This document shows, one piece after another, positions 45,894 to 50,182 of a stretch of DNA of 53,875 nucleotides; the stretch's first letter is position 1, and each line of letters opens with the position of its first letter. A program made the position numbers and the translations under genes. The notes under the pieces are model-generated. The model was not told where the DNA came from and ran no database searches. It was given only the letters and a program-made list of their open reading frames with translations. The DNA lies in assembly GCA_030432925.1 (NCBI GenBank), contig JAUILT010000007.1, positions 1 through 53,875 on the forward strand, in the 5' to 3' direction. This DNA is from Bdellovibrionia bacterium. GTDB taxonomy: Bacteria > Bdellovibrionota > Bdellovibrionia > Bdellovibrionales > UBA1609.

Positions 45894-48800
45894 ATGAGCC
45901 TGGACATTATCTTTTTATCCTATAACGAAACCAATGCTGATGAAAATTGGCAAGCTCTTAAGGCTCGGTTCCCCTTTGCCAAACGAGTTCATGGCATTAA
46001 GGGTTTAGCTTGTGCCCATAAAGCCGCTGCAGAGGCCAGTGACACAGAGTTTTTCTTTGTGGTGGATGGAGATAATCGTATTTTACCGGAGTTTGAGTTT
46101 TCCACGCAGAATTTAATCCTGAAACCTGACACAATTTATGTCTGGCGTTGTCAAAACCCTGTCAATGGTCTTACCTATGGTTATGGAGCTGTAAAGCTTT
46201 ACAATAAACGACTTTTACAAAAGCGTTATGAAGGTCGGTTTGTGGATCTCGCCTCTTCGGTGACCGAAAAGTACTGTATTGTGGATAAGGTCGCTTCTGA
46301 AACACATTTTTATTGTACACCTGAAGAGGCCTGGAGAGGTGGATTTAGAGAGTGTGCGAAGCTGGCATCGCAAAAAATTCATCGGCAAAAAAATGATGAG
46401 ACATTGGAGCGTTTGAACATTTGGTGTGAAAGGGCCCCTCGCTATGTGCCTAATAGCCAATGGGCTCTTTTAGGAGCTCGTCAGGGGCGGGACTTTGGTA
46501 AGACGGTATTGATTGGCAAGGGTGATTTGAAGAGTATCAATGATTTTCATTGGCTTCATACAAGATTTATCGAGGTATTTCGTGAGAATCATAGATTTAT
46601 TTCTGTAGTGATCCCCACCCATAATAGGCATAAGGACCTATTGAGATTGTTAAAAAGTCTTAAGGCTCAGTCTCTTGAGACGTCTTTTTTTGAAGTTTTA
46701 GTTATTAGTAATTTTCAAGATTCCGAGTTGGAACATAAAATTTTTGTGCAGCAATATCCTTTTCATGTCCAAATAGAAAGTGTGGGAAAGCTGGGTGTGA
46801 ATAGTGCTCGGAACTTGGGACTTGAAAGGGCTCGTGGTGAGATCGTATTTTTTTTAGACGATGACTGTGAGTTGATTGACAATGATCATTTAAAAAAGCT
46901 GAGAAGTCAGCATTTATATTATGAGAATGCTCTTGCTATTGGTGGTGGATATGAAGTTCCTGAAGGTACAAATTATATTTCTAGGGTTTATCATTATCTG
47001 GCCAGTTTTTGGTTTGATGCCCAATCTCGGCAAAGCTCCCAGGCCCTCAACCTATTGGGTGGCAATGTTTCTTATAAACTCTCCAAACTGAAACAGTATC
47101 ATCTTAAGTTTGATGATAGTATTGTGTTTGGGGGGGCTGAGAGTGAGTTTCACACCCGACTCATTGCAAAGGGGTTTGAATTAAGAAACACCAGCCCCAG
47201 TGTTCGACATCATTTAAAAATGGGGTTAAAGAGTTTTTACCGTAAAGCCTTTATGCAGGGAATGGGGGCCGAGAAGATCGCCGGTGATCGAGGTAAAAAA
47301 AAGGCTGATCATGGGAGCCCTCGGGGAACTTTGAAATATATTTTTATGCGCTATCATTATGACCGAGTTTTTAACAAAGGTCGAATATTTGCTCGTAAAA
47401 ATCCTGCACCCTTTGAAAACCTACCCTATCAAAATGAGGGTTGGCGACTGTTTTTTCAAAATTCGGTATTGGCCGCCTTCTTTTTGCCCTACGGGCTGGT
47501 GATGAAGGGGTTTTGGTTTTTATATCAAATGATTTATGTGAATGTGGTGGTGCAAACATTTTGGCTGGGTTACAAGAGCTGTTTGATCTCCTGGGGATTT
47601 TTAAAGCGCATGGGTATTTTCACGTATTGGCGGGGAGTCAAACTGCGGGAGCTTGTGAAAAGTCATATGAGCAAAATATATTGGAGGGGTTATCATCACT
47701 CCTTAAAGGTTCGTGGACATATAAAACGTCAATGTATCTTTATTTACTGGAAAATTTATCCAGTCAGTAGCTATTTAAAAGGGCAGTGGAAAAAATACTC
47801 TATAAAAACCTATTGGTTTTTGTATTATATGAAAAAGCAGTTTTATAAAGATATGCAAAAGAAATTGCAGCTTTGGTATTTTGGAGTTGATACCAACAAC
47901 TTGCCAAGAAGTTTCAAGTTAGCTGACAGTCCCAGCATGTATCTTCCTGTGAGTGGGCAGTGCACGTCTTCTTGTAGTTACTGCCCTCAACTAAAAGCGC
48001 GCTGGAACCTTAAGGGGTCCATTCCTAAGCCTGAGATCTCGCAGCTGAGCGCTATGGGTTATAATAGTGTCACATACCCATGTAATTTCTTATCACTGGA
48101 GCTGTCAGAACAAGAAGAGTGGAGCCGTCAATATCAATCTCTTGGTCAGGAAATTGTCATTAACCCAGATTTCGTGGATCCTGGAAAAAAGGCCTCTGTT
48201 CAGAAAATTATGAACTCCCTTGAGAATCTGGGTGACATTAAAGTGTTACTATTATTTCGTCATGGACGAGTGTTTCATTTATTGAGACAAGCTTTGAAGT
48301 CTTCAAGAATATCCTATCGCATATTATTTGTATTTGATGTCAGTGGAGATCCCAAAAAACTGTATCAGTCTCTTCCCATAGATGATTGGGGACGGATTCA
48401 GTTTCTTAATTCTTCGTCTCAGTCTCCTGAGGTGACAGATGATCGCAATCGAAAATTAGCACCTAAAGTAGGGCGAGCCATTAAGCAGTTTCAATGGAAA
48501 GATCAGAGTTTTTGGCCACAGACGAGTCATGTGCATTACCCGTTTTTGGTCAGCGAAGACTCTAAGGCGGCTGTTTGGGTTTATGGAACTATCAGTTGGC
48601 AATCTTCTGCTGTAGAAACGATGTTTGAAATCCCCAAGTATTCGATAGTGGTGCCTGTGCGTTATCAGATTGATCACGCTTGTAAGGTTCTGACTAACTT
48701 AGCTCATCAGCAGTATGACAGTCATGACTTTGAAATTCTATTTGTGGATGATGGTAATGACGAGGAATTAGCAGTATCCATTGAGCAGGCCTGGAAGGAC

Positions 48801-49556
48801 ATTGGAGAGCCTCCTTTGAACATACGGGTTGTTCGTTATCCAAGAGATACAGAAATGGGGTATGATACTAATTATCGGGCTGGACAGGCTCGAAATATGG
48901 GTCTGCGTTTTGCCAAAGGAGAGCGGTTGTTGTTTGTGGATTCTGATATTTTGATTGCGCCAGATCTTTTTCAAAGACTCGATAAGAGCCTCACTGATAA
49001 TATGATTATTCAGTTTCCGAGATACATGTTAACAGAAGATGCAACCAGAAGTTTTTCAAATTATGAATCCATAAAAATGAATCAGCACACGTACCCTCAA
49101 AGTGAGTACTGGGAGGAGTTCAAAAAAACTGATAGATGGATGAATTTAAAGAATTATTGGAAATACACTTGCACCTACGGATTGTGTTTGACCCGGAAAA
49201 CTCTTTCAACGACGGGCCCTTTTCGCGCCGATTTTATATTCTACGGATTTGAGGATGTGGACTTAGGGTATAGGTTATTTCAACGAGGAGGGGAGTTCTT
49301 ACTTCTGAAGTCACCAGTATATCATTTATACCCCGATCAGAATCACTCATTTCATTTTGATAAAGAGAAACGCTATCAGGCCCTGTCGCGATCGGCGTCT
49401 ATTTTTTTTCAGAGAAATATGGATTTAAATTTTTATTTTGATCTCAAAGGTTTTCTCAACCGCCCTTGGCATATTCGTCTGAGAAAACCCTATTATACAT
49501 TTAGGTATCATGCCCGAAAAAAGTTGCCCATGATTTTTGGCTCCCCTGAGGCATGA
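45894..49556 (+). CDS. Multidomain glycosyltransferase (GT-A/GT2-type domains) with embedded radical-SAM-like CxxxCxxC segment
   Basis: FFFVVDGDNRI; ISVVIPTHNRHKDLLRLLKSL...FFLDDDCEL; CTSSCSYC; YSIVVPVRYQIDHACKVLTNL...LLFVDSDILIAPD...GFEDVDLGYRLFQRGG. Confidence 0.85.
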   Translation: MSLDIIFLSYNETNADENWQALKARFPFAKRVHGIKGLACAHKAAAEASDTEFFFVVDGDNRILPEFEFSTQNLILKPDTIYVWRCQNPVNGLTYGYGAVKLYNKRLLQKRYEGRFVDLASSVTEKYCIVDKVASETHFYCTPEEAWRGGFRECAKLASQKIHRQKNDETLERLNIWCERAPRYVPNSQWALLGARQGRDFGKTVLIGKGDLKSINDFHWLHTRFIEVFRENHRFISVVIPTHNRHKDLLRLLKSLKAQSLETSFFEVLVISNFQDSELEHKIFVQQYPFHVQIESVGKLGVNSARNLGLERARGEIVFFLDDDCELIDNDHLKKLRSQHLYYENALAIGGGYEVPEGTNYISRVYHYLASFWFDAQSRQSSQALNLLGGNVSYKLSKLKQYHLKFDDSIVFGGAESEFHTRLIAKGFELRNTSPSVRHHLKMGLKSFYRKAFMQGMGAEKIAGDRGKKKADHGSPRGTLKYIFMRYHYDRVFNKGRIFARKNPAPFENLPYQNEGWRLFFQNSVLAAFFLPYGLVMKGFWFLYQMIYVNVVVQTFWLGYKSCLISWGFLKRMGIFTYWRGVKLRELVKSHMSKIYWRGYHHSLKVRGHIKRQCIFIYWKIYPVSSYLKGQWKKYSIKTYWFLYYMKKQFYKDMQKKLQLWYFGVDTNNLPRSFKLADSPSMYLPVSGQCTSSCSYCPQLKARWNLKGSIPKPEISQLSAMGYNSVTYPCNFLSLELSEQEEWSRQYQSLGQEIVINPDFVDPGKKASVQKIMNSLENLGDIKVLLLFRHGRVFHLLRQALKSSRISYRILFVFDVSGDPKKLYQSLPIDDWGRIQFLNSSSQSPEVTDDRNRKLAPKVGRAIKQFQWKDQSFWPQTSHVHYPFLVSEDSKAAVWVYGTISWQSSAVETMFEIPKYSIVVPVRYQIDHACKVLTNLAHQQYDSHDFEILFVDDGNDEELAVSIEQAWKDIGEPPLNIRVVRYPRDTEMGYDTNYRAGQARNMGLRFAKGERLLFVDSDILIAPDLFQRLDKSLTDNMIIQFPRYMLTEDATRSFSNYESIKMNQHTYPQSEYWEEFKKTDRWMNLKNYWKYTCTYGLCLTRKTLSTTGPFRADFIFYGFEDVDLGYRLFQRGGEFLLLKSPVYHLYPDQNHSFHFDKEKRYQALSRSASIFFQRNMDLNFYFDLKGFLNRPWHIRLRKPYYTFRYHARKKLPMIFGSPEA

Positions 49557-49639
49557 ACCTTAGACCTTTGTCGCAATTCCACTGTCAAATATTCAGTCAA
49601 CCCCATATTTGTCCGAGAAAACAAAAAAAGGGGTATGCT

Positions 49640-50182
49640 ATGATTAAAAAAATCGTATTCACTTTGATGGCTGTGACATTTGTGGCTTCTTGTGCAACTC
49701 ATCCAGAAGTGGGAGAGGACAACAAGCAGAACCGGCCGGAAAACATAGATTCAGAGATCACATTTGAGGGTGCCAGTAGTGCGGATGAGGATCCGTTCTT
49801 TAGTGAACCCATTGAAAGTGTGTCACCTCAGACAGCAGAAGAGGTCAACTTGCCAGAACCAACTCCAGAGCCTGCGGACTCTATGGAGCCTACTTTTGCT
49901 GATCAGTCAGCTCCTGAAGAGGAGTATGAAGAGCCGGAGTCAGAACCCGTGGATGCATCTTCTCAGCCTGTGACTTATAAAAAACCGGCATCTGTTCATG
50001 TCTCTGATGCTATGAGAACTCCTGGATCTGACTGTTCTTTGAGATCTTCACCGGGAACTGATGGTAAGCGTTTAGGTGTTGCTAAAAAAGGTCGAAAGAT
50101 TTGGACAGAAAATCATGATACTGGATGGTTTAAAGTTTATCGTAAAAAAGGGCATGCGTTTGTCAGTAAAAGCTGCTTTTGA
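49640..50182 (+). CDS. Lipoprotein with C-terminal SH3-like domain
   Basis: Lipobox FVASCA; acidic/Pro linker; DCSLRSSPGTDGKRLGVAKKGRKIWTENHDTGWFKVYRKKGHAFVSKSCF. Confidence 0.7.
   Translation: MIKKIVFTLMAVTFVASCATHPEVGEDNKQNRPENIDSEITFEGASSADEDPFFSEPIESVSPQTAEEVNLPEPTPEPADSMEPTFADQSAPEEEYEEPESEPVDASSQPVTYKKPASVHVSDAMRTPGSDCSLRSSPGTDGKRLGVAKKGRKIWTENHDTGWFKVYRKKGHAFVSKSCF

Follow-up and report, generated by a model that had tools for sequence, protein, structure and literature searches.

A three-glycosyltransferase chain from Bdellovibrionia with a cysteine domain of likely radical SAM ancestry

Domain layout of a 1,220-residue protein

The window analyzed here is the whole 53,875-nucleotide stretch of DNA from a Bdellovibrionia bacterium (GenBank assembly GCA_030432925.1, contig JAUILT010000007.1, positions 1 to 53,875). 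An open reading frame (ORF) on its forward strand, with an ATG start (45894 to 49556), encodes a 1,220-residue protein that combines three GT-A-type domains with a cysteine domain. Translation and Pfam searches confirmed that this ORF and its domains are real, and the architecture of the original prediction, three glycosyltransferase (GT) domains in one chain surrounding a CX3CX2C segment, was borne out. Downstream lies a lipoprotein-like ORF with an SH3 domain (49553 to 50182); read from its first ATG, it overlaps the GT stop codon by 4 bases, and the true start is more likely one of its later ATG codons, where a lipoprotein signal begins the product.

The N-terminal domain (N-domain; residues 1 to 231, nucleotides 45894 to 46586), with VDGDN at residues 57 to 61, is GT-A-like by its modeled fold, albeit divergent. 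Pfam and PDB sequence-profile searches returned no match for it, and hhalign against GT2 profiles found nothing (P 0.78). An AF2 model built from 37 sequences (the window's and 36 viral ones) has a pLDDT of 92.3 and a pTM of 0.88, and nucleotide-sugar GT-A enzymes make up its Foldseek matches at E ≤ 0.001 (E 4e-5 to 1e-3). These matches include ThuS/SunS, WrtF, TarP, and a PBCV-1 enzyme, and the TM-scores are modest (query TM-score of 0.37 to 0.46 among the best matches). The GT-A-like N terminus that had been read from the letters alone is thus backed by AF2 and Foldseek without any sequence-profile recognition. Stand-alone homologues of the N-domain, 47 to 55% identical, occur in genus- and family-level relatives.

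Two GT2 domains had also been proposed, and both are matched by Pfam profiles above the curated cutoffs, with DxD and acidic catalytic motifs in place. The first (GT1; residues 235 to 500, nucleotides 46596 to 47393) matches PF00535 at residues 237 to 396 (119.9 bits, E 1.3e-34) and carries a DxD-like FLDDDCE and the acid motif GGAESE. The second (residues 909 to 1195, nucleotides 48618 to 49478) matches PF10111 at residues 918 to 1168 (62.7 bits, E 5e-17), carries FVDSDIL (DxD) and GFEDVD (acid motif), and resembles the N-terminal GT of chondroitin polymerase (phmmer to 2z86, 7.7e-11).

A linker of ∼20-residue aromatic/basic repeats of the "YWKIY...K" type (residues 515 to 680, nucleotides 47436 to 47933) follows GT1, as judged from composition and from [YF]W at positions 540, 556, 578, 596, 618, and 640. 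It is rich in Trp, Tyr, Lys, and Arg: aromatic residues make up 24% of it, Lys and Arg 16%, and Asp and Glu 3%. Except for one stretch near residue 525, its hydropathy lies under the level of transmembrane helices, which suggests that the aromatic repeats may contact the membrane at its surface. Longer aromatic repeat arrays are found in relatives; one of these (L210:9632-12190) has a long array of 18-residue repeats of the type LHLWKYSPVRLKHW. The C-terminal motif PxRKIYYFxxYQxxKR is common to several relatives.

The cysteine domain and the radical SAM superfamily

Residues 682 to 905 (nucleotides 47937 to 48608), delimited by family alignment and hhalign, form a domain of ∼225 residues that resembles radical SAM (rSAM) proteins. 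It contains the predicted CX3CX2C motif (Cys690, Cys694, and Cys697; nucleotides 47961 to 47984), which is evident in the translation and conserved in the genus, and the predicted absence of a GGE motif was confirmed. The PVSGQ...CPQ stretch quoted for this region is present at 47946 to 47990, 5 nucleotides away from the start coordinate given earlier. Shuffling the protein yielded CX3CX2C in 52 of 20,000 cases (0.26%). Before the second GT2 domain, the segment has just one more cysteine, Cys730, which lies in a Pro-Cys-Asn sequence (Pro729-Cys730-Asn731; nucleotides 48078 to 48086) that family and profile alignments place at the rSAM GGE position. Neither this cysteine nor the aromatic repeats were part of the original prediction.

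Profile searches detected the cysteine domain in 28 of the 141 genomes searched in the order and 35 of the 369 searched in the phylum; it is full length in most of these 35 genomes, which span several families. In nearly all members, a GT2 domain belonging to a single subfamily follows, and a few members continue into a region without a GT2-profile match. In three loci (L206:7266-8414, L211:2717-4984, and L213:8734-11076), a four-cysteine domain and such a GT2-profile-negative region are followed by aromatic, basic helices. The window's own genome has a second cysteine-domain GT2 protein (L063:9325-11055, contig C139, 577 residues), which also carries CX3CX2C and Pro-Cys-Asn. In a 1,351-residue relative (L049:8343-12395), the cysteine-domain/GT2 unit occurs twice in succession, and its second copy is the more degenerate. 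Searches with the GT2-containing alignment recovered 80 GT2 relatives from many phyla among genome contigs, and GT2s only among viral contigs, with no convincing cysteine domain in either set.

No Pfam or NCBIfam profile scores above threshold for the cysteine domain, and no match of a cysteine-domain profile is significant at database scale. PF04055 does not match the window domain, and the best-scoring relative (L218) reaches 14.2 bits against a gathering cutoff of 29.5. The single NCBIfam match of the window segment (TIGR04038, E 0.055 in a library of 18,950) is in register at CX3CX2C. So are the weak rSAM matches of L218 (PF04055 positions 3 to 72), L053 (CofG), and L164 (STM4011). A PDB profile search with the cysteine-bearing members gave nothing significant, and several of its weak matches are rSAM proteins aligned at the motif. 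When these members were compared by hhalign with 31 canonical rSAM proteins from the genomes examined, the two profiles were collinear over 149 columns, motif over motif and Pro-Cys-Asn over GGE (P 0.0025, at a probability of only 12%); among 25 column shuffles, the lowest P was 0.081, and the reversed profile gave 0.31. Cysteine-less members alone showed no similarity to rSAM (P 0.16); cysteine-less and cysteine-bearing members clearly belong to one family (E 1e-38).

Averaged propensities predict alternating strands and helices; an AF2 model from the single sequence (pLDDT of 35) is unusable for reading the fold. The domain shares with the radical SAM superfamily (PF04055) the CX3CX2C motif, the likely order of strands and helices, and the length of the core; with that length it is not the "mini" module that had been suggested. 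It differs in having a fourth cysteine instead of GGE, in falling under all family thresholds, and in lacking the motif in most relatives. The alternative that had been offered, a degenerate or relic rSAM scaffold, is supported, and an rSAM ancestry, with a putative rSAM-type fold, is likely.

The domain might instead be unrelated to rSAM, an alpha/beta accessory domain whose four-cysteine zinc or Fe-S knuckle reads CX3CX2C by chance. The lack of a significant profile match and the absence of the motif in most members would fit this explanation, as would the weak contacts of the all-member profile with unrelated TIM-barrel chains such as 4F2hc. Against it stand the collinear alignment, which extends ∼150 columns past the motif and brings Pro-Cys-Asn over GGE, and the agreement in register among the weak rSAM matches of four members. 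We regard a chance resemblance as rather unlikely.

The four cysteines and their evolution

CX3CX2C is present in 17 of 43 family members and absent in the other 26 (at most 25 when L052, a relative cut at a contig end, is left out). All 17 motif-bearing members have a fourth cysteine: 12 have Pro-Cys, found in none of the 26 members without the motif, and in the other 5 the additional cysteine lies just after the motif, within eight residues of it. Only 1 of 48 canonical rSAM proteins has a cysteine that close to the motif. The association between the motif and the fourth cysteine gives a P of 4e-7 in a Fisher test that ignores kinship; over well-supported branches, only 2 to 3 of 4 independent pairs change together, and none change oppositely. 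On a GT2 tree built without the truncated L052, the motif changes 7 times (bootstrap range, 6 to 8); counting only the well-supported branches, as few as 2 changes are required. As far as the sequences tell, there were probably several losses or gains of the metal site, with the domain itself retained throughout.

Conservation of the cysteines, which had been named as a check on the prediction, holds within the genus and is patchy across the family. Among the three species of the window's genus, all four cysteines are invariant and belong to the 49 invariant positions of 219 (P 0.0023 if these positions were distributed at random). Between the window's genome and G008, identity is 33% for the cysteine domain, 57% for the second GT2 domain, and 79% for a canonical rSAM neighbor. 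A decaying, functionless domain beside GT domains that alone matter would be expected to diverge fast and to change its metal motif repeatedly, as this one has. However, the domain is still full length in most of the genomes that have it, across several families, and its four cysteines do not vary among congeners, which makes decay improbable.

GGE orients the amino and carboxyl groups of SAM in SkfB (PMC6231123). A fourth protein ligand that blocks or regulates SAM occurs in several rSAM enzymes, namely, Glu273 in TsrM, Tyr115 in Mmp10, and Cys62 in NifB (PMC8992657, PMC9692996). NifB, TsrM, and Mmp10 thus resemble the window domain in that a protein residue can occupy the iron site of SAM; these three are working, SAM-using enzymes, whereas the window domain has lost GGE and is partnered with a glycosyltransferase. 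By analogy, Cys730 could be a displaceable plug like Cys62 of NifB in a working rSAM enzyme that modifies the sugar or acceptor of the flanking GT domains. The existence of plug ligands in NifB and Mmp10 speaks for such an enzyme, as do the bona fide rSAM enzymes encoded beside relatives and the invariance in the genus of some 45 residues besides the four cysteines, themselves invariant. We nevertheless consider it very improbable: there is no GGE, the domain diverges far faster than the canonical rSAM neighbor, the motif is missing in more than half of the relatives, and the PF04055 threshold is not reached. We likewise give little credence to a single chain that would build a glycan and edit it by radical chemistry, in which Cys730 would cap the resting cluster and, much as proposed for NifB and Mmp10, would step aside on binding of the glycan substrate so that SAM could bind without GGE. 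Radical SAM chemistry in this chain, as originally envisaged, is not supported: the domain has Pro-Cys-Asn in place of GGE, diverges fast, and is not recognized by Pfam, and most relatives retain it without the cysteines. Active radical chemistry by the cysteine domain is unlikely.

Gene neighborhood and a proposed role in glycan assembly

The window protein is a fusion of three genes that are neighbors in relatives. In at least 21 loci, the cysteine-domain GT2 gene has a GT1 gene as its neighbor, in many cases in divergent orientation. Canonical and twitch-type rSAM genes are present as well in many of the loci, and an N-domain gene in a few. In G008, GT1, linker, cysteine domain, and GT2 are fused (L039) in the same order as in the window, and the N-domain gene is separate; the copy in G009 ends at the contig end. 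The GT1-to-GT2 fusion occurs in two genomes, that of the window and that of one congener, and just a single assembly shows the fusion to the N-domain.

Viral contigs contain many members of the N-domain family: 102 relatives were confirmed and 80 loci kept. Of these 80 loci, 47 have a GGE-bearing rSAM gene close to the N-domain gene, compared with 0 of 45 viral GT2 loci; many of the loci are near-copies, so that the counts are not independent. One rSAM subfamily near viral N-domain genes reads CNYSCSYCWPYA, and the same sequence is found in bacterial relatives of the window. The viral N-domain genes (L295-L374) often have an rSAM gene of canonical or twitch type nearby, and the N-domain is sometimes fused to an rSAM protein (L355).

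Multiple GT domains in one chain have precedents. Chondroitin polymerase K4CP (2z86), to which the second GT2 domain is matched, has two GT-A domains per chain; unlike the window protein, it is not known to have a cysteine domain, N-domain, or aromatic repeats (structure described in PMC7826918). Chlorovirus PBCV-1 A111/114R also joins three glycosyltransferase domains in one chain (PMC7826918); it has no rSAM-like module, and its domains are of families other than those of the window protein. By analogy with two-domain K4CP and three-domain A111/114R (PMC7826918), we favor successive sugar transfer, in which the two active GT2 domains and the divergent GT-A domain would act one after another. 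The protein would then be an enzyme of glycan assembly at the membrane surface, held to the membrane by its aromatic repeats.

For the cysteine domain, our preferred reading, in which we place somewhat more trust than doubt, is an accessory module derived from rSAM and independent of SAM, attached to a pair of GTs that would assemble a glycan. The domain would descend from the partial barrel of an rSAM protein in which radical SAM chemistry has ceased. GGE, the holder of the SAM amino group, would have become Pro-Cys-Asn, and Cys730 would join Cys690, Cys694, and Cys697 in a four-cysteine site binding either a fully ligated [4Fe-4S] cluster or zinc. Such a module may serve its GT2 partner in a structural or stabilizing, docking, or regulatory (redox-sensitive) capacity. 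A structural, docking, or regulatory role would explain why many relatives drop the cysteines yet keep the domain.

Degenerate rSAM families have presumably been recognized before, as the name of the NCBIfam pseudo-SAM/SPASM family TIGR04347 implies. TIGR04347 is a different family from the window domain, and here it gave only a weak match to a neighboring rSAM protein. Our literature searches found no description of an rSAM-glycosyltransferase fusion with such an architecture. If our reading is right, the cysteine domain represents a family that lacks annotation and is tied to glycan synthesis, and in it glycosyltransferases have co-opted an rSAM scaffold as an accessory domain. The association of N-domain and rSAM genes in viral contigs points to a broader connection of radical enzymes with glycan assembly. 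In the cysteine-domain family, forms with a four-cysteine site would coexist with others that grade into domains having no metal at all, offering a natural series for how the open iron site of rSAM proteins closes and is then lost.
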